23,371 bases of DNA from a virus (IMGVR_UViG_3300013137_002543:1-23371); one strand, 5' to 3'; positions 223 through 23,371 are shown, counted from the stretch's first letter. Program-made: numbers and translations. Notes: a model not told the origin generated them from the letters alone.

Positions 223-236
223 GACCTCCCCAGGTC
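223..236 (-). promoter_or_regulatory. palindromic Shine-Dalgarno element, copy 1
   Basis: The minus strand reads GACCTGGGGAGGTC, a 5-bp inverted repeat (GACCT/AGGTC) around GGGG, ending 3 nt before the ATG at 219. The Shine-Dalgarno GGGGAGG forms the loop and 3' arm of the hairpin. The same 14 nt occur before the gene starting at 21042. The layout resembles the start-associated sequences of cluster K mycobacteriophages in concept, not in sequence. Confidence 0.65.
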
Positions 237-3475: not shown

Positions 3476-3492
3476 GTGTGTGATCCTTCCCG

Positions 3493-3516
3493 CCAGGGAC
3501 CCGCCCAGGTCCTTGG
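3493..3516 (-). promoter_or_regulatory. YGGGCR-loop stem-loop before the primase start
   Basis: In the minus-strand RNA CCAAGGACC pairs with GGUCCCUGG (9 bp with one A-C mismatch) around a UGGGCG loop. GGAAGGA and the ATG at 3475 follow at once. It is one of four such hairpins; the others are at 6738-6757, 9795-9817 and 11636-11655. Confidence 0.6.
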
Positions 3517-3518
3517 AT

Positions 3519-3576
3519 TGGTGGGGCGCAGGGAGTTGAACCCTATCCCGCGTCCGGCCCGGTGCCGGTCGCCCCC
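3519..3576 (-). other. tRNA-like element ending in CCA
   Basis: The minus strand contains a canonical tRNA 3' part: T-arm TAGGG-TTCAACT-CCCTG (3545-3529), acceptor 3' strand CGCCCCA (3528-3522) and encoded CCA (3521-3519). GGGGGCG at 3576-3570 can pair with the acceptor strand in six of seven positions. Only 24 nt lie between it and the T-arm, filled by one hairpin (CCGGC-ACCGG-GCCGG), so there is no D-arm or anticodon loop. It could be a decayed tRNA, the 3' end of a host tRNA carried as an attachment core, or a small tRNA mimic. Confidence 0.5.
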
Positions 3577-3583
3577 GGTGCTG

Positions 3584-3973
3584 CTAGTCGAACTGGGGAG
3601 CCTGGAAGCGCCCCTCCGCCTCGAGGGCGTGGAGCCAGGCCGCGCCCATGGCGGTCAGCTGGACGAGCTCCTCGCGCAGGGAGTCGAAGTCCCCGTTGTC
3701 GTAGGTCGTCCGTCGCGCGATGCGGCCGAGCTGGGCCTGGACCTCGTTGCTCTTGCGGAGCAGGAGGAGGGACACCTCCTCGGCGACCTCGCCGCCCTCC
3801 TCCATGAGGATCCCGAGCCGCTTGCCGGCGTCGTGGCCGGGTGCGGCCATCGACTCGGGGCCGTGCTTCCTGCCGGCCCTGAGGATCTCCTCCGAGACCT
3901 CGTCGAGGATGCCGGCCAGGATCACGCCGCTGACGGCGTCGGCCACCGTCCCCTGGACGCTCGCCACGCCCAT
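3584..3973 (-). CDS. MazG-like nucleotide pyrophosphohydrolase
   Basis: A 129-aa all-alpha protein of the MazG-like NTP pyrophosphohydrolase type, expected to hydrolyse (d)NTPs to monophosphates with Mg2+. The first metal-binding helix is seen as LMEEGGEVAEEV (E58, E59, E62, E66). The second is LREELVQLTAMGAAW at 99-113, where the usual ExxD is ExxQ (E102, Q105); I recall this variant from phage MazG-like proteins. The ATG at 3973 shares one base with the stop of the upstream gene (TGATG). The CDS ends 8 nt before the tRNA-like element. It fits the nucleotide-pool genes upstream. Confidence 0.75.
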   Translation of the reverse strand: MGVASVQGTVADAVSGVILAGILDEVSEEILRAGRKHGPESMAAPGHDAGKRLGILMEEGGEVAEEVSLLLLRKSNEVQAQLGRIARRTTYDNGDFDSLREELVQLTAMGAAWLHALEAEGRFQAPQFD

Positions 3974-4848
3974 CAGAAGCTCGCCTGGGGGGCCGCGGGC
4001 GCTCCGGCCTGGGGAACGCCGGGCGGCTGGGGCGCGGGGACCCCGGGCTGGCTCGGCGGCTGGAAGGCCGGCGGCGCGGCCGCGGGGGCGCCGGGCATGC
4101 CGGGCATCTGCGGCGGGGCCTGCTGGACCGGGGGCGCCTGCGGGGGCGCCATCGGCGGGGCCTGCTGCTCCTGGGCGGGCGGAGCCGCGTACTGCTGCGG
4201 CGCGGGCGGGGCCATGGCCGCAGCCTGGGCCGGGGGCGCCATGCCGGGCTGGGGCATCCCCGGGGCGGGCATGCCCCCGGGGGCCGGCGGCGGGAAGCCC
4301 CCTCCGGCCGGAGGGGCCTGGACCCCGGGCATCGCGGGCGGCGGCGGGGTGCCCAGGCCGAGCGAGCCCGCGGTCGGCGCGGCGGCCGGCTCCGGCGGGT
4401 CCACGCCGTCGTCCTCGGTGAACGACCCGAAGTTGTTCCTCGTCGCGTCGTTCTTCTGGAGCGTGGCGTTGGCCTTGCAGGCCCGGTTGACGAGCTGCTG
4501 GGCGATGAACTCGCAGTGCTCGCGGGTGATGGCCTGGTTGCCGAAGGACTGGATCAGCCACTCCTTCGTGATGCCGAAGGCCAGCATGTCGCCGAGGAAG
4601 AAGCCCAGCGACTGCTCGGCCTTGTCGTCGTGCTGGTCGGGGAGGACCCAGTTGTGCCAGACCTTCCGGCCCTTGGCCTTGCCCTCGTTGATGACCTCCA
4701 TCTGCACGGAGACCATCTGCTTGCCCGACTGCGCGGTCTTGCCCTGGCCCGTGAGGATCCGGAACCGGTAGGTCGCGGGGGCGAGGGGCTGGAAGCCCGC
4801 GTTGGGCTGGACGTTCTGGAGCACTGCTCCCCAGGTCACGGAACTCAC
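3973..4848 (-). CDS. SSB-like (DUF669-type) protein with long Pro/Ala/Gly/Gln tail
   Basis: A 291-aa protein. Residues 1 to about 150 form a folded beta-rich domain (YRFRILTGQ, KQMVSVQMEVINEG, KVWHNWVL) followed by helices, resembling phage single-stranded DNA-binding proteins of the DUF669 type; that link is by appearance. From about 155 to the end the chain is low-complexity Pro, Ala, Gly, Gln and Met. It starts after an acidic patch (TEDDG) and ends in Phe. Bacterial SSB tails also end in Phe but are acidic, so the likeness is partial. The GTG at 4848 overlaps the ATPase stop (GTGA), with GGAGGT upstream. Lying between a Sak4-like ATPase and the primase supports an ssDNA role. Confidence 0.7.
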   Translation of the reverse strand: MSSVTWGAVLQNVQPNAGFQPLAPATYRFRILTGQGKTAQSGKQMVSVQMEVINEGKAKGRKVWHNWVLPDQHDDKAEQSLGFFLGDMLAFGITKEWLIQSFGNQAITREHCEFIAQQLVNRACKANATLQKNDATRNNFGSFTEDDGVDPPEPAAAPTAGSLGLGTPPPPAMPGVQAPPAGGGFPPPAPGGMPAPGMPQPGMAPPAQAAAMAPPAPQQYAAPPAQEQQAPPMAPPQAPPVQQAPPQMPGMPGAPAAAPPAFQPPSQPGVPAPQPPGVPQAGAPAAPQASF

Positions 4849-5720
4849 TGCTGGATACCTCCGGTGTTTGCGGGGCCGGCGTTGTACCGGCCCTCGAGGA
4901 TGTTGATGAAGTCGGTCAGGTCGTACCCGCCGGCCCCGGTGTCGATGTCCTTCAGCGCCACGACGGAGCCGAAGGTCCGGGACAGGACGTGGGTGCGGTC
5001 CTTGGCCACGTATTGGCCGTAGGGCTGGATCATGAGCCGGCGCAGGAGGCCCTGCCCGTCGGCCGCCTGCTCGGTGTACAGGAACCCTACGAGGTCCACG
5101 AAGCCGGGCAGGGCCTTCTGCAGTGACCCCTGGAGGAACGGCCGGAAGAGGCCGCCGTTCTTGTCGTCGGTGAGCGTCAGGAAGATCACGTTCTGGAGCG
5201 GGTTGGCCGGGTCCTTCGCGATGTCGCGCATGCGGCGGACGACGGCCTCCATCTCGATCAGGAGGTCGCCCCAGTGCTGGGTCTGCATCCGCTCGGTCCC
5301 GCGGATGGCGTCGCGGCACCGCTTCTGGATCTCGGTCAGCGAGTCCAGGATGGCCGACTTGAACGGGTGCATCCCGGAGTCGAGCCACTGGTGGACGCGC
5401 GCCCAGGTCGCCCAGTCGCGGACGATGACCCGGACCGTCTCGGCGCAGACCTCCTGGCCGGGCTCGCAGCCCTGGACGCCCGGCGGGGCGTACAGCAGGG
5501 GGTTCCAGATCTGCTTGGGCCACGACGGCGTGTACTCGGAGCCGCCCTCCGCGTCGAGGACCAGCCGGGGGCCCGGGACGCTGTCGGCCAGCGTGGACTT
5601 GCCGCCGCCCGACTCCCCGTGGATGACCGCCGTGAAGCTGCTCCTCTGCCAGGCCGCGACCTCCGCGACCTGGGCGACCTGGGCGACGACGGCCTGCTGG
5701 TCGTACTGCTGCTGGGTCAT
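4845..5720 (-). CDS. Sak4/RecA-like P-loop ATPase (AAA_24 type)
   Basis: A 291-aa ATPase with Walker A GESGGGKS (35-42), a following LVLDAEGG strand (53-60), and a Walker B-like SAILDSLTE with D126. This layout is typical of the phage Sak4/AAA_24 RecA-like group, which promotes single-strand annealing together with a phage SSB. The next gene encodes an SSB-like protein, which fits the pairing. Residues 7-25 form a Gln/Val/Ala-rich helix before the ATPase core. The ATG at 5720 overlaps the upstream nuclease stop (ATGA) and is preceded by GGTGGAGAAGGG. Confidence 0.85.
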   Translation of the reverse strand: MTQQQYDQQAVVAQVAQVAEVAAWQRSSFTAVIHGESGGGKSTLADSVPGPRLVLDAEGGSEYTPSWPKQIWNPLLYAPPGVQGCEPGQEVCAETVRVIVRDWATWARVHQWLDSGMHPFKSAILDSLTEIQKRCRDAIRGTERMQTQHWGDLLIEMEAVVRRMRDIAKDPANPLQNVIFLTLTDDKNGGLFRPFLQGSLQKALPGFVDLVGFLYTEQAADGQGLLRRLMIQPYGQYVAKDRTHVLSRTFGSVVALKDIDTGAGGYDLTDFINILEGRYNAGPANTGGIQQ

Positions 5721-6721
5721 CCCTTCTCCACCTCTGTGTACCTCTCGTAGGGGTCGTGCTGGACGAACTCCAGCTGGACCACGGACTCTACGTCGGAGCC
5801 GTCGTCGAACTGGGGGCAGGTCATGAAGAAGGGGCAGTCCCACGAGCAGTCGCGCGTCGGGTTGGGGTAGGCCACCACCTGGTGGTCGGCGCCCTCGTCG
5901 AGGTACCGGCGGACCCGGAGGATGTCGGTGACCTCGCCCCAGACCCGCTTGTGGAAGTTCCGGTAGACGGTGTCGTTGTGGGACACCGACGCCCTGCCGT
6001 AGAAGGGCGGGTTGGACCTGGCAGTCCGCTTGACCTTGCGGAGCATGTTCCACATGCCGCCGCTGGCGAAGCGCTGGTCGGGCCGGCCCTCGGCGATCGC
6101 CTCCATCCGCTGGAGGAGGCCGTAGGTCTTGAGCTGCTCGTCGAGGGGCCCCGTCTTGGGCAGGTCGCTGAGGGTCTGGCAGGACTTGTGGTCCATGAAC
6201 ACCACGCGGCCGTCGGAGCGCAGCTCGGTCTCGGTGTCGAGCTTGCCGATGAGCCAGACCTCGGCGCCCTCGATGTGCCCCAGGTAGGCCTCGATCTCCC
6301 TCTCCGCGGAGAGGACGTTGATCTCGCTGTCGGCGCCCTCCTCGACCAGCCACTCGAAGTAGCCCCTGAGCATGATCTTGACCAGCTCGTAGTCCTCGAG
6401 CATGCGGCCGTGGAGGTGGTCCGGCAGGTTGGGGTCCTCGAGCCGGGCCTCGACGTGGCGGGCGAGCGGGGTCTCCCAGTCGAAGGTCTCGGGGGCGCGG
6501 GCCGGCTCGGCGTAGTACAGCTCGAGCGGGTGGTGGATCATGTTGCCGATGGAGAGCGGGCCCACGCCGTCGCGGCGGGGCGTGAGCTTGTGGTAGTAGG
6601 CCAGCCACCACTTGCGGCGGCAGCGCTTGAATGCCCGGAGCTCGGAGTTGCTGAACTTCATGACGGGTGCCGAGACCGCGCCCTCCGCGAGGGTCGGCTC
6701 GGCGACGACTGGGTGGTCCAC
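5717..6721 (-). CDS. Cas4/RecB-like exonuclease from the internal start
   Basis: The nuclease half of the 5717-7252 frame has its own initiation site. GTG at 6721 (codon 178) is preceded by AGGAAGGATCACCA, the same Shine-Dalgarno as the primase gene, and by a 7-bp stem-loop with a CGGGCA loop. From here the product is 334 aa. ATG at 6661 (codon 198, MKFSNSEL) is a second option. A PD-(D/E)XK nuclease with a 4Fe-4S cluster would process DNA ends for the Sak4-like annealing system encoded next. In the linker just before the GTG, codons such as GCT ACT GTT and GAA GGA TCA break the local G/C third-position rule, which suggests a former intergenic gap. Confidence 0.6.
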   Translation of the reverse strand: MDHPVVAEPTLAEGAVSAPVMKFSNSELRAFKRCRRKWWLAYYHKLTPRRDGVGPLSIGNMIHHPLELYYAEPARAPETFDWETPLARHVEARLEDPNLPDHLHGRMLEDYELVKIMLRGYFEWLVEEGADSEINVLSAEREIEAYLGHIEGAEVWLIGKLDTETELRSDGRVVFMDHKSCQTLSDLPKTGPLDEQLKTYGLLQRMEAIAEGRPDQRFASGGMWNMLRKVKRTARSNPPFYGRASVSHNDTVYRNFHKRVWGEVTDILRVRRYLDEGADHQVVAYPNPTRDCSWDCPFFMTCPQFDDGSDVESVVQLEFVQHDPYERYTEVEKG

Positions 6722-7252
6722 TGGTGATCCTTCCTGCGAGGGGATGCCCGTCCCCTCCGACTCCTGAACAGTAGCGCGCGTGGTCGGCGCGTGGTCCCCG
6801 TGTGCGGCGGCCGCCTCGGCCCCCATCTCCCGGGCTCTGTCGGCCCACTCGTCAGCCCTCAGGTTCCCCGCGTTGTCCCGGTGGCCCTTTACCCAGACCA
6901 GCTCGCACTGGGCGCCCTGGTAGGCCCACAGGGCCTCCTGGACGAGCTCCAGGTTGGCCGGCTCGGTGCCGTCGGCCTTGCGCCAGCCCCTGGCCTCCCA
7001 GCCCGGCGCCCACTTCGTGAGGATGTTGACCCAGAGCTGGCTGTCGGTGTAGATCCTGGTGACGGGCGAGCCGTCGCCGGCCTCGCCGCACAGGAGCATG
7101 GCCGCGACCAGGGCCTGGCCCTCCATCGCGTTGTTGGTCGCCCAGTCGGCGGCGCCGAGCAGGACGGGGCCGGAGGCGTCGACGACGGCCCAGCCGCCGG
7201 GCCCGGGGTTGGTGGGCCCGGCCGACCCGTCGGTCCACAGCTCGTCCGTCAC
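5717..7252 (-). CDS. RNase H domain in frame with a Cas4/RecB-like Fe-S nuclease
   Basis: One open frame of 511 codons. Residues 1-145 are an RNase HI domain with the four metal ligands in order: D8 (LWTDGSAG), E44 (NNAMEGQ), D70 (IYTDSQL) and D134 (NLRADEWA); it should remove RNA primers. Residues 198-511 are a PD-(D/E)XK exonuclease with GKLD and FMDHKS. It also has one N-terminal Cys (FKRCRRKW) and a C-terminal DCSWDCPFFMTC cluster, the Cas4/AddB pattern of a 4Fe-4S site. The 52-residue linker contains an internal start (GTG 6721). The GTG at 7252 overlaps the helicase stop. It may be a true fusion or two genes whose separating stop was lost. Confidence 0.75.
   Translation of the reverse strand: MTDELWTDGSAGPTNPGPGGWAVVDASGPVLLGAADWATNNAMEGQALVAAMLLCGEAGDGSPVTRIYTDSQLWVNILTKWAPGWEARGWRKADGTEPANLELVQEALWAYQGAQCELVWVKGHRDNAGNLRADEWADRAREMGAEAAAAHGDHAPTTRATVQESEGTGIPSQEGSPVDHPVVAEPTLAEGAVSAPVMKFSNSELRAFKRCRRKWWLAYYHKLTPRRDGVGPLSIGNMIHHPLELYYAEPARAPETFDWETPLARHVEARLEDPNLPDHLHGRMLEDYELVKIMLRGYFEWLVEEGADSEINVLSAEREIEAYLGHIEGAEVWLIGKLDTETELRSDGRVVFMDHKSCQTLSDLPKTGPLDEQLKTYGLLQRMEAIAEGRPDQRFASGGMWNMLRKVKRTARSNPPFYGRASVSHNDTVYRNFHKRVWGEVTDILRVRRYLDEGADHQVVAYPNPTRDCSWDCPFFMTCPQFDDGSDVESVVQLEFVQHDPYERYTEVEKG
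6738..6757 (-). promoter_or_regulatory. YGGGCR-loop stem-loop before the internal nuclease start
   Basis: The RNA forms a perfect 7-bp stem, GAGGGGA/UCCCCUC, around a CGGGCA loop. GCAGGAAGGA and the GTG at 6721 follow. The layout matches the hairpins before the primase, polymerase and resolvase genes, although this one lies inside an open frame. Confidence 0.6.
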
Positions 7253-9126
7253 GCCGGCCCCTTGTGGCCGAGCATGCGCCGGAGGATGCCCTCGTCGTTG
7301 ACGACCTCCTGGAAGTGCACCTCCTTGCCCTCCAGCTTCTCGATCTTGTCGAACTCCTCGAGGGTGCCCTCGGAGACCACCGTGATGATGGAGACCGAGC
7401 CGGCCTTCTGGCCGGGCCTGTCGACGCGGGCCTTGAACTGCTTGTTCTCGATCGGGTCCCAGGACTCCTGGAGGAACACCAGGGTGTCGGCGGCCACCAG
7501 CTCGTTCAGGCCCTCCTTGGCGGCGCTGATGACGCACAGGGCGACCTTGGCCGAGCCCTGCTCGAAGGCCCTCAGGTAGGCGTCCTGCTCGTGGTCGTTC
7601 ATCCCGCCGGCGACGAGGCAGTACGGGATCTTGGCCTTGAGCAGGGCCTCCTCGCAGAGGGCGATGAGCTGGCGCGACGGGGCACCGAAGACGATCTGGC
7701 GGGACGGGCCCGCCTCCTTGGTGATGCCTATCTCCTCGACGAGCTCCAGCATGACCTTGACCTTGTTCGACGGGGCCTTGAGCTGGAGGTCCAGCAGGGT
7801 CTCGCCGGTCTCCGGGTCCTTGCGCCCCTTGTCGACCATCTCGCCGTAGGCCTGGGACAGCTGGTGGAGGCGGCCGCTGGCCGTCATCTTGCGGGTGTCG
7901 ACCAGCACGCCGCCGTCGAGCTCGGCCATCATGTCCTTGGCCATGGACGCGTACGCGGTCGCCTGCTTGGGCTCCATCGGCACGGAGAGGGTGTGCTCCA
8001 TGACCTGGGGCTTGAACGGGTCGAACTGGACGCGGAGCCGGCGGATGCCGTACGGCTCGAAGGCCTGGTAGAACTCCTCGCGGGTCTCCGGCTTCACCCC
8101 GCCGATCTCCATCCCGCCGAAGGCGTTCCACATCGTGGTGGCGTACCTGTCGACCATCCTGGAGTAGGCCGGCCAGGCGACCTCGTCGAGGAAGTTCAGG
8201 ATGGACCAGGCCTCGGCGCTGTTGTTGGACACGGGGGTCCCGGTCAGGGCGTAGCGGAAGCGGGCGGGCGTGGTGCCGACCCGCTGGGTGCCGAAGGCGA
8301 TCGCCTTGAGGGCGCGGGTCTGCTTGGACTTGCGGTCCTTCGCCCGGTGCGCCTCGTCGGCGACGACCGTGGACCAGTCGACCTCGTTGAGGAGGTTGGG
8401 CTCCCGCTCCTTCGGGGTCATCTCGATGTTCCCGAAGGCCTCCAGGCGCGACAGGCCGGCGAGGCTCTCCCAGTTGGTCACGACGACCTGCGGCCGCTCG
8501 TCGGCGGGGACCTCCGGGTCGGTCAGGCGCGCGAGGAGCTTGCGCTGCTGGGCCTTGCCCTTGGGCATGACCTCGACGCGCAGCTCCCCCCAGAACGGGC
8601 CCTGGCCGTCGCGGTCGTCGTGGGCCTCCTTGACCCACGTGCGCCGGACCTTGTTCGGGCAGACGACCAGGGCCGGGAAGACCTCGTCCTCGCCGTGCAG
8701 GGCGACGGCCAGCTTCATGGCGGCCAGGGTGGTGCGGGTCTTGCCCCCGCCCATCTCGTCCATCTCGGCGTAGCGCTCGGCGAAGACCATCGCCCAGGTG
8801 GCCACGCGCTGGAGCGGCCAGAGGCGCTCGGCCGTCGGCCCCTGGAGCGGGAAGTCCTCCATGTACCGGAGAGTCAGGAGCGGGCCGAAGCGGTGCTCCC
8901 AGTGGTGCTGGCCCCAGGCCACGTAGGTGGGGTCGGGCTCGATGGACCAGGCGAAGACGCCGTTGACGGCCACGTAGGCCGGCCAGGTGGCCGTGGCCAC
9001 CCAGGCACCCTGCGGTCCGACGCCCGCCTTCCAGGTCGCCCCGGGCACCTGCTTGGCGAGGTCCCCCTCGTGCAGGCCGCACTCGAGGACGAAGGCGTCC
9101 ATCGCCTGGTCGTACGAGGCCCTCAC
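7249..9126 (-). CDS. SNF2/SF2-family DNA helicase
   Basis: A 625-aa DNA-dependent ATPase of the SNF2-like branch of superfamily 2. Motifs in order: I DEMGGGKTR (123-131; Gly replaces the usual Leu of DEMGLGKT), Ia LVVCPNKVRRTW, II ADEAH (256-260), III ALTGTP (293-298), then in the second lobe ISAAKEGLNEL and a QFKARVDRPGQK motif VI. The first 110 residues are a unique N-terminal region. In phages such proteins remodel or unwind DNA during replication and recombination. GTG at 9126 is chosen for its GTGA overlap; its Shine-Dalgarno is weak and ATG at 9102 is an alternative. Confidence 0.88.
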   Translation of the reverse strand: MRASYDQAMDAFVLECGLHEGDLAKQVPGATWKAGVGPQGAWVATATWPAYVAVNGVFAWSIEPDPTYVAWGQHHWEHRFGPLLTLRYMEDFPLQGPTAERLWPLQRVATWAMVFAERYAEMDEMGGGKTRTTLAAMKLAVALHGEDEVFPALVVCPNKVRRTWVKEAHDDRDGQGPFWGELRVEVMPKGKAQQRKLLARLTDPEVPADERPQVVVTNWESLAGLSRLEAFGNIEMTPKEREPNLLNEVDWSTVVADEAHRAKDRKSKQTRALKAIAFGTQRVGTTPARFRYALTGTPVSNNSAEAWSILNFLDEVAWPAYSRMVDRYATTMWNAFGGMEIGGVKPETREEFYQAFEPYGIRRLRVQFDPFKPQVMEHTLSVPMEPKQATAYASMAKDMMAELDGGVLVDTRKMTASGRLHQLSQAYGEMVDKGRKDPETGETLLDLQLKAPSNKVKVMLELVEEIGITKEAGPSRQIVFGAPSRQLIALCEEALLKAKIPYCLVAGGMNDHEQDAYLRAFEQGSAKVALCVISAAKEGLNELVAADTLVFLQESWDPIENKQFKARVDRPGQKAGSVSIITVVSEGTLEEFDKIEKLEGKEVHFQEVVNDEGILRRMLGHKGPA

Positions 9127-9153
9127 AGGAGCCCAGCCCGGGGATCGATGAGG
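9123..9153. repeat. imperfect direct repeat, copy 1
   Basis: The stretch from TCACAGGAG to ATCGATGAGG closely matches 9314-9341 (TCACAGGAG to TCGATGAGG), 191 bp away. Each copy covers the last codons and stop of one gene plus the overlapping start of the next. The two encoded C-termini are alike (LIDPRAGLL and LIDPRSLL). The pair brackets the small membrane-protein gene. Confidence 0.5.
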
Positions 9154-9317
9154 ATTGCGGCCACGACCAGGGCGACCGCCAGGAGGCCGGGCAGCACGCC
9201 GACCTTGACGGACCGGCCGGTGCGGGCGTAGCTGATGCCCATCCCGATGATCGCCAGCTGCCAGAGGAGGGCAGCGCCGGCGAGGACGCAGAGGATGAGC
9301 TGGATGGTCATGGTCAC
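9123..9317 (-). CDS. small membrane protein, 64 aa
   Basis: A 64-residue protein with two hydrophobic segments, about 5-29 and 39-57, joined by a short basic loop (ARTGRSVKVG). This predicts a two-helix hairpin in the host membrane. No family is recognised. The GTG at 9317 overlaps the resolvase stop (GTGA); ATG at 9311 is the alternative. It sits between a Holliday-junction resolvase and a helicase, yet nothing in it suggests a DNA role. Direct repeats at its ends suggest it was inserted as a cassette. Confidence 0.65.
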   Translation of the reverse strand: MTMTIQLILCVLAGAALLWQLAIIGMGISYARTGRSVKVGVLPGLLAVALVVAAILIDPRAGLL

Positions 9318-9341
9318 AGGAGGCTCCTGGGGTCGATGAGG
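9314..9341. repeat. imperfect direct repeat, copy 2
   Basis: Partner of 9123-9153. It covers the last codons of the resolvase gene and the start of the small membrane-protein gene. Confidence 0.5.
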
Positions 9342-9781
9342 TTCTGGCGGACTGCGTAGACGAGGGCGTGCCGGGCTGCGTCGCGGCGGTGGCCGGCCTC
9401 GCCCTTGGCACCGTCCCACCAGCCGACGGCCTTGAGCTTCCGGCTCCCCTCGGCGAAGGACTTGTCCGAGGGCAGCTGGCGGGCGAACGGGGTGTGGTAC
9501 CAGCGGCAGAAGGTCTGCAGCACGCCGATCTGCTTGATGGACCACATGACCTCGTCGGAAGAGGCCTCCTTGGCGGTCCGCTGGTTGACGGTGAACCCCT
9601 CCATGAGGACCAGGTCCAGGTCGCCGGTCTGGATCCTCGTGAAGGCGTAGTCGATGAACTCGTCGTGCGGCAGCTCGCCGCCGCGGAAGGCGACCGAGCT
9701 CTTGTCCCCGACGGTCCAGGTGAGGTCGCCGTAGCCGGTCATCTTTCCGGGGTCGACGATCAGGGCGGTGCGGTGCTCCAC
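9314..9781 (-). CDS. RuvC-like Holliday junction resolvase
   Basis: A 155-aa RNase H-fold nuclease. The first catalytic Asp is D10 in LIVDPGKMTGYG, the DPG-x-x-TG signature of RuvC-like enzymes. The second acid is E61 in LVLMEGF. The C-terminal GHRRDAARHALVY supplies the final His/Asp pair typical of the family. It should resolve four-way junctions or trim branched DNA before packaging. The GTG at 9781 follows GGAAGGAGAGCA, behind a TGGGCA-loop stem-loop (9795-9817), 50 nt after the polymerase gene. Confidence 0.85.
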   Translation of the reverse strand: MEHRTALIVDPGKMTGYGDLTWTVGDKSSVAFRGGELPHDEFIDYAFTRIQTGDLDLVLMEGFTVNQRTAKEASSDEVMWSIKQIGVLQTFCRWYHTPFARQLPSDKSFAEGSRKLKAVGWWDGAKGEAGHRRDAARHALVYAVRQNLIDPRSLL

Positions 9782-9794
9782 TGCTCTCCTTCCG

Positions 9795-9817
9795 GCCACC
9801 CGGTGCCCACCGGCGGC
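9795..9817 (-). promoter_or_regulatory. YGGGCR-loop stem-loop before the resolvase start
   Basis: The RNA pairs CCGG with CCGG around a UGGGCA loop, then a small internal loop (G opposite GU), then GCC with GGC. CGGAAGGAG and the GTG at 9781 follow directly. Confidence 0.5.
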
Positions 9818-9831
9818 GCACATGGATCGTA

Positions 9832-11619
9832 CTAGGCGGCCTCGCCGTAGCCGTCGCCCCAGCGGCGGACCAGCTCGGCGTCCGTGGTGAGCGGGACCTG
9901 GAACTTGGTCCGCTCGGGCATGACCTCGTTGACGACGGCCAGCGCGTCGTGCGCGGCGTCCTCCGGCCACTCGAAGAGGACCTCGTCGTGGATGGGGAGG
10001 ATCATCGTCTCGCCCACCCAGGTGCGGCTCAGCTCGACCAGCTTGGCCTTGAGCACGTCGGCCGCCGTCCCCTGGATGAGGTAGTTCACGGCCTTGTAGG
10101 CCTCGCGCGGCCAGCAGGGCTCCTTGCGCCCGTAGGCCGTCACCACGTGGGGGTCGCCGCTCTCCTGGTTGCGGACCCAGAGCTGCTTGGCCACGCGGCT
10201 GGGGAAGGCGTCCTTGCGGGTCTCGGGGAAGGCCCGCTCGTAGGCGCTGTTGGCCTCGCTGGCCTCCGCCAGGGTCAGGCCCGACGTCGCCGCGAAGGTC
10301 TCCAGCCCGGAGCCGTACATCTTGCCGAGCGCGACGCCCTTGACCTTCTTGCGGAGGGGCTTGGGGACCTCGTCCTCCCAGCCGACGCCGAACACCATCC
10401 GGGCCGAGTTGGACCACAGGTCGTAGCCCGACCGGCCCTGCGAGGCGAGGTGGTCGCCGTAGCGGACCATCTCCAGCATCCGCTGGTCCCCGGAGTAGTG
10501 GGCGAAGAGCCGGCCCTCGATCTGGTCGTAGTCGGCCTTGCCCATGTAGTAGCCCTCGGGCACCCAGAAGGCGTTGCGGATGCGGTCGTCCTTGGCCGGC
10601 AGGTTCTGGAGCGAGGGCCTGGACACGCTCATGCGTCCCGTGCGGGCCCCGAGCGGGTTGATGCTGGCGTGGAGCCGCCCGTCGGGTCCGCAGAGCTCCA
10701 GGATGTTCCGGCCGTAGGTGTGGGTCATCTTGTGGTACTCGCGGTGGCCCAGGGTCAGCTGGGCGACCGGGTGGTCGATGGCCCGCAGGATGTCGTCGTC
10801 GAGCTTGGGGTTGCCCTTGTCGGTGAAGACGATCGGGCGCCAGCCGGTCTCCCGCTCCAGGGCCCGCATGACCTGCTGGTCGGAGTTGGGGTTGTGGACG
10901 TTGAACTGCTCCTTGAGCACGTGCCCGACGGCGGCCTCCTGGCGGCCCCAGTCCTCCATGGCCCGGGTCAGGTAGCCGCGGTCGATGAGGATGCCCCGCC
11001 GCTCCATGTCGCACAGGACCTGGGTCGAGGCGATCTCCAGGTCGTAGATCCCCTGGTAGCCCTGGGCGATCCAGGGGTAGAGCTCGTCGGCGAGCTGGGC
11101 GGTCAGCACGGTGTCGAAGGCGGCGTACTTCCAGAGGAGCTCGACGGGGACGGTGTCCCAGGTCCAGCCGCCGGCGGTCATGGCCTGCTTCAGCTCGTCC
11201 TCGCCGTGGAGCGCCCAGGGGCCGAGGACCTCGGCGGACTTCGGCTTCAGGCCGGTGCGCTTGGCCGGGTTCAGGATGTGGGCCATGGCGCGGGTGTCGT
11301 GGACCAGCCACCGCTTGAGCCGGACGCCGTTGACCTCCAGGAAGTGGGTGTCGAACTTGGCGTTGTGCATCGCGATGGGGCCGTCGTAGCGGTTGAGGGC
11401 CTCGATGATGAGGCCGGCCCAGCGGTCCCACTCGATGCACCAGCCGTGGTGCCTGTCCCCGAACTGGACGGTCCGCAGCCGGTCGCGCCACCAGTCGAAG
11501 CCGCCGGTCTCGGTGTCGACGGCGAGCCAGGTCCTGCGCTGGCCGAGCCAGTGCATGAAGTCGTTGGCGTCGGAGAGGGTCTCGACCCAGTGGAGCTCGA
11601 TGTCTGTCGTGCCTGGCAC
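9832..11619 (-). CDS. polA: DNA polymerase I (family A) with 3'-5' proofreading domain
   Basis: A 595-aa replicative phage polymerase. The DEDDy exonuclease is intact: ExoI VDTET (D35, E37), ExoII NAKFD (N86, D90), ExoIII YAAFD (Y165, D169). The 5'-3' nuclease domain of bacterial Pol I is absent, as usual in phages. Polymerase motif A is DYDQIEGR (363-370; the classic form is DYSQIELR), motif B runs from R423 to YG at 435-436, and motif C is HDE (544-546), with IQGTAAD at 516-522. L431 aligns with E. coli Phe762. The GTG at 11619 follows GAGGAAGGAACACC, behind a perfect 7-bp stem-loop. Confidence 0.95.
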   Translation of the reverse strand: MPGTTDIELHWVETLSDANDFMHWLGQRRTWLAVDTETGGFDWWRDRLRTVQFGDRHHGWCIEWDRWAGLIIEALNRYDGPIAMHNAKFDTHFLEVNGVRLKRWLVHDTRAMAHILNPAKRTGLKPKSAEVLGPWALHGEDELKQAMTAGGWTWDTVPVELLWKYAAFDTVLTAQLADELYPWIAQGYQGIYDLEIASTQVLCDMERRGILIDRGYLTRAMEDWGRQEAAVGHVLKEQFNVHNPNSDQQVMRALERETGWRPIVFTDKGNPKLDDDILRAIDHPVAQLTLGHREYHKMTHTYGRNILELCGPDGRLHASINPLGARTGRMSVSRPSLQNLPAKDDRIRNAFWVPEGYYMGKADYDQIEGRLFAHYSGDQRMLEMVRYGDHLASQGRSGYDLWSNSARMVFGVGWEDEVPKPLRKKVKGVALGKMYGSGLETFAATSGLTLAEASEANSAYERAFPETRKDAFPSRVAKQLWVRNQESGDPHVVTAYGRKEPCWPREAYKAVNYLIQGTAADVLKAKLVELSRTWVGETMILPIHDEVLFEWPEDAAHDALAVVNEVMPERTKFQVPLTTDAELVRRWGDGYGEAA

Positions 11620-11635
11620 GGTGTTCCTTCCTCGG

Positions 11636-11655
11636 GGGCCGCCGCCCAGCGGCCC
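11636..11655 (-). promoter_or_regulatory. YGGGCR-loop stem-loop before the polymerase start
   Basis: The RNA forms a perfect 7-bp stem, GGGCCGC/GCGGCCC, around a UGGGCG loop, the same loop as before the primase. CCGAGGAAGGAACACC and the GTG at 11619 follow. The spacer 11656-11745 also contains TAGCCC about 18 nt after TGAACC, a weak promoter possibility. Confidence 0.6.
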
Positions 11656-17208: not shown

Positions 17209-17487
17209 TCAGTCCCTGGCCGGCTTGGTGCGAGCGCGGAACTCGTCCGCCGTCTCGTCCTCGCGCTGGAAGGTGAAGACCACGGAGTCGCCCTGGACGT
17301 TGGTCGCCGTCAGGCGCTGGACCTTGGACCCGCGGACCTTGATCTGGCCCTGCATGACCTTGGCCTCGACGTCGAAGTCGTCGCCCCGGGTGATCTTCCG
17401 GGTCTGGCCGTCCTGCCACTCGGACCACGGGTACTTGGAGTTCCCGTGGCCGGTCCTGAAGTCGTGGCCCTCGAGTACCTCGGCCAT
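17209..17487 (-). CDS. hypothetical protein, 92 aa
   Basis: A 92-aa protein opening MAEVLEGHDFRTGHGNSKYPW. The middle is beta-rich (RKITRGDDFDVEAKVMQGQIKV, with further strands at KVQRLTATNV and DSVVFTFQ) and the end is a charged helix. This looks like a small beta-barrel or OB-like fold, possibly nucleic-acid binding, but no family is recognised. ATG at 17487 has a strong GAGAGGAG Shine-Dalgarno. It is the last gene of the unit started by promoter copy C. Confidence 0.7.
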   Translation of the reverse strand: MAEVLEGHDFRTGHGNSKYPWSEWQDGQTRKITRGDDFDVEAKVMQGQIKVRGSKVQRLTATNVQGDSVVFTFQREDETADEFRARTKPARD

Positions 17488-21044: not shown

Positions 21045-21058
21045 GACCTCCCCAGGTC
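21045..21058 (-). promoter_or_regulatory. palindromic Shine-Dalgarno element, copy 2
   Basis: The minus strand reads GACCTGGGGAGGTC, identical over 14 nt to 223-236 and placed 2 nt before the ATG at 21042. The two downstream genes are unrelated, so the match is in the control element. Confidence 0.65.
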
Positions 21059-22882: not shown

Positions 22883-22904
22883 GAGGGCCGGTCGGGCACT
22901 GCGG

Positions 22905-23060
22905 ATTCTAAACAAGCTAACAGGACATAGACCCCCCTCCAGTCCTTTGTGCCGTCTGAGGCATTCTATTAGCTATTATCCTTTAGATAAAGATAGATCC
23001 CTTTATGTGGGAGGGGGGTATATCTCTTGTTATGTTCTTTAGTAGCGCTAGGGGATAGTA
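22905..23060. other. AT-rich island
   Basis: This stretch is markedly AT-rich in an otherwise GC-rich sequence. It contains GATAAT and TAGAAT -10-like hexamers on the minus strand, the inverted CTTTA-GA-TAAAG, and TAGCGCTA. It could be a DNA-unwinding region of an origin, a promoter region, or recently acquired DNA. Confidence 0.45.
22927..23023. repeat. long-range inverted repeat across the AT-rich island
   Basis: ATAGACCCCCCTCC (22927-22940) and GGAGGGGGGTATAT (23010-23023) are complementary at 13 of 14 positions, with 69 nt of AT-rich DNA between. They could form the base of a large stem or be paired binding sites. Confidence 0.45.
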
Positions 23061-23306: not shown

Positions 23307-23363
23307 CCCCCCCCCCCCCCCCCCCCCCCCGCGCGCGCCGGGCCCCCCCCCCCCCCCCCCCCC
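23307..23363. other. long C homopolymers at the contig end
   Basis: C runs of 24 (23307-23330) and 21 (23343-23363) are separated by a short GC stretch. Poly-G read tails from two-colour sequencing give this pattern on the opposite strand, so the end is probably an assembly artefact and not a natural terminus. Confidence 0.6.
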
Positions 23364-23371
23364 GCCGCCCC

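Follow-up and report, generated by a model that had tools for sequence, protein, structure and literature searches.

Do four hairpins of similar design, each standing just before the start of a replication gene in a phage of 71.5% GC, represent copies of one RNA element, and if so, what would read them? The sequence is a phage record of 23,371 bases from IMG/VR (IMGVR_UViG_3300013137_002543); this whole stretch is called the window, and positions are counted from its first letter. A companion contig (G001; IMGVR_UViG_3300013132_000081, 46,769 bases) shares the replication block, with a 100% identical polymerase, and carries all four hairpin sites at a constant offset (window position 1 is G001 position 32,941). 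Thus, a merged sequence of 56.3 kb could be used for the analysis.

The replication block occupies positions 11,619 to 893 of the minus strand, in the order family A DNA polymerase, RuvC-like protein, 64-aa ORF, SNF2 helicase, RNase H, Cas4-like exonuclease (hereafter the nuclease), Sak4-like protein, SSB-like protein, 129-aa protein, and primase-helicase (Table 1). The annotation of Arthrobacter phage Atuin has the same order of polymerase, RuvC-like, helicase, exonuclease, RecA-like, and SSB genes. The RuvC-like gene was named by this synteny, and its protein had no match in Pfam, NCBIfam, or PDB. At the end of the window (23307-23371), C-homopolymer runs were found that are likely an assembly artefact, and an A+T-rich stretch (about 22,900-23,050) lies ahead of them.

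Table 1. Hairpins, start-associated boxes, and genes of the window
Feature	Position	Strand	Detail
Primase-helicase hairpin	3493..3516	-	CCAaGGACC-TGGGCG-GGTCCcTGG, 2 nt, GGAAGG, 9 nt, ATG3475
Primase-helicase SD box GGAAGGA	3484..3490	-	start ATG 3475-3473
Nuclease hairpin	6738..6757	-	GAGGGGA-CGGGCA-TCCCCTC, 3 nt, GGAAGG, 7 nt, GTG6721
Nuclease SD box GGAAGGA	6728..6734	-	start GTG 6721-6719
RuvC-like gene hairpin	9795..9817	-	GCCgCCGG-TGGGCA-CCGGgtGGC, 1 nt, GGAAGG, 6 nt, GTG9781
RuvC-like gene SD box GGAAGGA	9787..9793	-	start GTG 9781-9779
DNA polymerase hairpin	11636..11655	-	GGGCCGC-TGGGCG-GCGGCCC, 4 nt, GGAAGG, 6 nt, GTG11619
DNA polymerase SD box GGAAGGA	11625..11631	-	start GTG 11619-11617
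Class A element	223..236	-	before ATG219
Class A element	21045..21058	-	before ATG21042
TACTGT, -10-like TANNNT box	6768..6773	-	10 nt before nuclease hairpin
TACGAT, -10-like TANNNT box	9826..9831	-	8 nt before ruvC hairpin
Family A DNA polymerase, 595 aa	9832..11619	-	PF00476 DNA_pol_A, 1.5e-60
RuvC-like resolvase	9314..9781	-	named by synteny with Atuin gp94
Small ORF, 64 aa	9123..9317	-	overlaps ruvC and SNF2
SNF2-type helicase	7249..9126	-	4-nt overlap with each neighbour
RNase H	6722..7252	-	open in frame into nuclease, no stop
PD-(D/E)XK (Cas4-like) exonuclease (nuclease)	5717..6721	-	
Sak4-like annealing protein	4845..5720	-	4-nt overlap couples it to nuclease
SSB-like protein (DUF669, PHROG 378)	3973..4848	-	start overlaps Sak4 stop (GTGA)
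129-aa protein (PHROG 2831, function unassigned there)	3584..3973	-	start overlaps SSB stop
Primase-helicase, 860 aa	893..3475	-	Zn_ribbon_DnaG, PHROG DNA primase/helicase

Two classes of start-associated hairpin

The earlier note had described a hairpin, a GGAAGG box, and a start codon before four replication genes, and this architecture was present at all four sites on the minus strand. These hairpins, called class B, have a near-fixed YGGGCR loop on differing stems of 4-9 bp, and each precedes the start of the primase-helicase, nuclease, RuvC-like, or DNA polymerase gene. In that order, the RNA loops are UGGGCG, CGGGCA, UGGGCA, and UGGGCG, the distance from the loop end to GGAAGG is 11, 10, 10, and 11 nt, and that from GGAAGG to the start is 9, 7, 6, and 6 nt. 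The box was in fact GGAAGGA at all four sites, one letter longer than claimed, and the claimed 6-8 nt between box and start held at the lower bound but reached 9 nt at the upper. The Shine-Dalgarno (SD) box lies outside the conserved hairpin in every case. The ruvC stem has four perfect inner pairs and the primase stem consists of an inner GGACC/GGUCC and an outer CCA/UGG across an A-C mismatch; the outer pairs of both stems require a mismatch or bulge. In the window, the composite pattern had four matches, all on the minus strand, and none on the plus strand; G001 had the same four matches and one extra, which is no such hairpin.

A sister element, class A, has the form GACC-UGGGGA-GGUC (GACCTGGGGAGGTC) with the SD inside the hairpin. 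It is identical in five places, where it directly precedes five other starts (219 and 21042 in the window; 32139, 31740, and 30586 in G001), and a copy also precedes a start in the closest relative, L141 (826-845). The primase hairpin, GGACC-UGGGCG-GGUCC, is almost that of class A with the SD shifted downstream. A copy of GACCTGGGGAG at the SSB gene falls within the coding region, 3' of the overlapping GTG start, and was left out of the counts.

Intrinsic terminators were rejected because no U run follows any of the four class B hairpins, GGAAGGA standing there instead. Rfam covariance models gave only a tRNA at gathering thresholds and no match to a cis-regulatory element, so a known Rfam family of that kind was rejected as well. 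Directly before the primase hairpin, positions 3521-3575 of the minus strand resemble the 3' end of a tRNA (AGGGUUCAACUCCCU, GCGCCCC, ACCA); this stretch gave sub-threshold Rfam matches only and no ARAGORN call, and is possibly an attachment-site remnant or a tRNA-like structure.

Excess over chance, pairing, and relatives

GGG runs are common in DNA of 71% GC, and the merged genome holds 350 copies of YGGGCR on both strands. A flanking stem of at least 4 bp was found in 12 of these 350, as against all four chosen sites (P=8e-7). The composite pattern occurred four times in the merged genome and twice in total in 60 dinucleotide shuffles, which excludes the earlier note's refuting case that shuffled sequence gives the pattern as often. 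A hairpin with a YGGGSR loop was present in 9 of 81 leaders, whereas shuffled leaders gave a mean of 0.43 (maximum, 3) and random positions one of 0.99; these chance values are somewhat optimistic, since the pattern was defined after the sites were seen. A control independent of that choice was made with the linear pattern TGGGCR-N10/11-GGAAGGA-N4/8-RTG in unrelated IMG/VR viral contigs. Among the 79 matches listed, a stem of at least 4 bp was found in two and one of 5 bp in none; thus, a match to the linear pattern does not entail a hairpin. In an exact-pattern scan of IMG/VR, 14 other contigs each had one copy of GACCTGGGGAGGTC, a yield that we judged to be about chance level. On these copies and on the absence of stems of at least 5 bp from the 79 listed class B matches, the idea of a widespread element was rejected.

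Covariation was scored in an ungapped alignment of seven sequences: the four class B sites, two orthologous nuclease leaders (see below), and one class A copy. In this set, 85.7% of cells were paired, both sides had changed in six of the seven pairs, and the score was 0.88 against 0.21 in shuffles, none of 500 of which reached 0.88; slid structures were only 35-57% paired. Folding energies of single leaders were ordinary for their GC content (z about 0) and were dropped as evidence, so the evidence lies in the repeated pattern and the pairing rather than in stability. Scores of covariance model R1, which recovers its training sites by construction, were also left out.

A terminase scan gave relatives at 51-65% identity, and nuclease and polymerase scans added L141 (polymerase, 70%; nuclease, 74%) and G010. 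Few further close relatives came from the primase, Sak4, and polymerase scans, and a Sak4 scan of genome contigs gave none. G005 and G010 are probably one phage, because they share a sample of origin and a piece of the polymerase gene forms an end of both. The nuclease leader is AGGGAC-CGGGCA-GTCCCT in G010 and CGGGGC-CGGGAC-GCCCCG in G006, each 10 nt before a ACCGGGAG box. Thus these two relatives (about 59% identity) keep the loop family and the 10-nt spacing on new stems. The repeated start box of the relatives, ACCGGGAG(A/G), precedes some seven starts of G006 and some nine of G005/G010. Of the 40 starts in G010, only that of the nuclease has such a hairpin; of the 76 in G006, two do, and the second candidate there (ACGGCT-CGGGGT-GGCCGT, 18 nt from the SD box) precedes RNase H at the head of the polymerase unit.

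Class B was absent from the nuclease, polymerase, and ruvC leaders of L141; G005, G010, and G006 had no element at the polymerase, ruvC, or primase gene, which mostly overlap upstream genes there; and G002, G003, G009, and G012-G015 had no replication-gene element of this kind. Three of the four sites (polymerase, ruvC, and primase) are therefore without orthologous support. The earlier note had held that stems not conserved by compensatory change in relatives would refute it; this is so for those three, where the element is absent, but not for the nuclease. Its proposal that RNA structure is selected is supported by the pairing kept on differing stems (n=7) and by the nuclease leader of two relatives, and from these sequence comparisons selection on RNA structure appears to act at the hairpins.

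The same results bear on coincidence, that is, a by-product of GC-rich leaders and strong SDs. The GC content of 71.5%, the after-the-fact choice of the pattern, and the lack of conservation at three of the four genes speak for it, but the shuffles, the random positions, the 79 listed linear matches, and the nuclease orthologues largely refute it, and we regard it as very improbable.

Placement of the hairpins and what may read them

The replication block consists of four translational units, each of them headed by one class B element: the polymerase; ruvC, the small ORF, SNF2, and RNase H; the nuclease, Sak4, SSB, and the 129-aa protein; and the primase-helicase. The inner genes overlap their neighbours (by 4 nt in the ruvC unit; at 5717-5720, at GTGA 4848, and at 3973 in the nuclease unit). 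Since the four elements head all four units, the earlier idea of one control over the whole replication set gains in strength.

RNase H and the nuclease form one open frame (5717-7252) with no stop between them, so the nuclease element sits inside an open frame, and the nuclease is either fused with RNase H or made from an internal start. Third-position GC is 0.98 on either side of the linker that holds the element and 0.80 within it, as would suit a non-coding constraint at this place.

TANNNT is rare in this sequence (0.00045 per position), and such a box stands shortly before the nuclease and ruvC hairpins (Table 1); the nuclease hairpins of the relatives have TACGGT (G010) and TACCGT (G006), each 8 nt upstream. 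These boxes may be promoters, with transcripts that would start almost at the hairpin. The primase hairpin has TAGGGT 23 nt upstream, and the polymerase hairpin has no TANNNT box close upstream.

The reading we prefer, at about even odds, is that the hairpins are start-associated RNA elements, read by a putative factor that would co-control translation of the replication module. The conserved loop, the free arms, the fixed spacing to the SD, and the placement at unit heads point to recognition at the RNA level during the initiation of translation. The four features would be copies of one cis-acting element of the translation initiation region, with the hairpin bordering the ribosome site on its upstream side and a strong GGAAGGA SD 10-11 nt from the loop. 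The loop would be read by a factor acting in trans, most likely an RNA-binding protein of the phage itself, that would alter 30S access; the module would thus be tuned together, and translational coupling would pass the effect to the inner genes. At class A, where the SD lies inside the hairpin, the same or a related factor would act at other genes. Repression seems the likelier sign of control than activation, since a protein on the hairpin would stand in the way of 30S.

Alternatively, the hairpins may be passive, serving at or near the 5' terminus as mRNA stabilisers or as ribosome standby structures that leave the SD accessible, and would then need no dedicated binder; the likeness of the loops would then come from a stable loop in GC-rich RNA or from common descent. 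This is conceivable above all because two of the hairpins may be 5'-terminal: the TANNNT boxes at 8-10 nt before the nuclease and ruvC hairpins, repeated at 8 nt in G010 and G006, suggest that the hairpin may begin the mRNA, and the position of the SD outside all four class B hairpins fits as well. Stability or standby, however, needs neither a fixed loop nor a fixed 10-11 nt from loop to SD, and at the polymerase and primase the box is missing or distant; passive hairpins are therefore a doubtful explanation, though one to be taken seriously.

The same two boxes would place the inverted repeats near +1, as expected of a DNA-level operator or promoter part over transcription starts. The arms vary and the spacer is kept, which is the reverse of palindromic operators; the spacing is fixed to the SD rather than to the -10 box, which the polymerase lacks; and the stems covary (n=7). 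A DNA element is accordingly improbable.

As for a reader, the earlier note had pointed to T4, in which the DNA polymerase represses its own translation. Polymerase autoregulation of this type was not supported, since the polymerase here is a family A enzyme (PF00476) and the polymerase leaders of L141, G005, and G006 lack the element; the site conserved in relatives is the nuclease leader. A 92-aa protein encoded at 17209-17487 has the motif KYPW..W.DG and is conserved near the polymerase gene in L141, G005, and G006. It had no Pfam, NCBIfam, or PDB fold match (E<0.001; AlphaFold model, pLDDT 70), and is an unproven candidate for a regulator.

A short G-rich loop, conserved on a free stem, would also suit an RNA partner, the GGGC loop kissing a GCCC loop in another leader or in a small RNA made by the phage; no partner RNA was found, the Rfam scan giving a tRNA only, and we consider such kissing slightly less probable still than a DNA element.

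Known start-associated sequences and phage operators

By position and repetition, the hairpins are best placed as a structured variant of the start-associated sequences of actinophages (SAS/ESAS and CR3/CR4). In Cluster K phages and Cluster EF Microbacterium phages, SAS/ESAS are a repeated SD motif at many non-structural genes; some SAS have an inverted repeat just upstream, and no function is assigned (PMC3203893, PMC7302621, PMC12699233). Shared with them is a repeat at the SD immediately before several starts (four for class B, five for class A). The SAS are, however, fixed 13-bp sequences (GGGATAGGAGCCC and GGGAAAGGACCCC), unlike the boxes here (GGAAGGA and GACCTGGGGAGGTC), and the Cluster K ESAS conserve 17-bp imperfect-repeat arms around a variable spacer, whereas the elements here conserve the loop and have changing arms. 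Of the two classes, A is the more SAS-like. In Anaya, three GGG/CCC pairs can close the Cluster K SAS GGGATAGGAGCCC into a hairpin with the SD in the loop (about -3.4 kcal/mol), a fold possibly linked with class A.

In Cluster M mycobacteriophages, many starts have CR3/CR4 repeats with upstream stem-loops, in which a short hairpin adjoins a conserved SD box (PMC7953290). In the Estes leaders compared, the likeness lies in the architecture, a repeated SD box immediately preceded by a short hairpin. The Estes box is CGGAGAAGGGAA, not GGAAGGA, its hairpins are mostly GCTG..CAGC, and they precede many right-arm genes of unassigned function rather than a replication set.

The gp43 operator of T4/RB69 is likewise a conserved-loop hairpin upstream of the ribosome site of a replication gene, with a loop identical between the phages (PMC3014915). 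It serves one gene autogenously, from about 40 nt upstream, with a UAAC loop and a family B polymerase; here there are four units, a family A polymerase, and relatives whose polymerase gene lacks the element, so the phage falls in with gp43 neither by polymerase family nor by conservation at the polymerase gene. T4 RegA is one phage protein that represses about 30 mRNAs at the initiation region, replication genes included, at A+U-rich, unstructured sites (PMC3014915) unlike the GC hairpins here, and no match to RegA was found among the phage proteins searched. The gp43 operator and RegA are, by analogy, functional parallels and not relatives.

A wider proposal is that a phage RNA-binding protein reads a UGGGNR/YGGGCR hexaloop, controlling the replication module through class B and further genes through class A, and that this would be a structural key to SAS/ESAS; we put it forward tentatively, as rather unlikely. 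Start-associated motifs have been on record in actinophages since 2011 with no function assigned to them, and a 2025 survey of 188 Cluster K genomes states that the SAS role still needs experimental verification (PMC12699233). The copies in this phage are few, their gene set is defined, and their loop is fixed on free stems, which makes it a clean test case in which simple mutations could tell loop recognition from stem pairing. If a single factor does read all copies, they would constitute a translational regulon that serves a complete replication module in a phage not of the T4 group, and would offer a key to SAS/ESAS, whose GGG...CCC flanks could likewise form SD-bearing hairpins.
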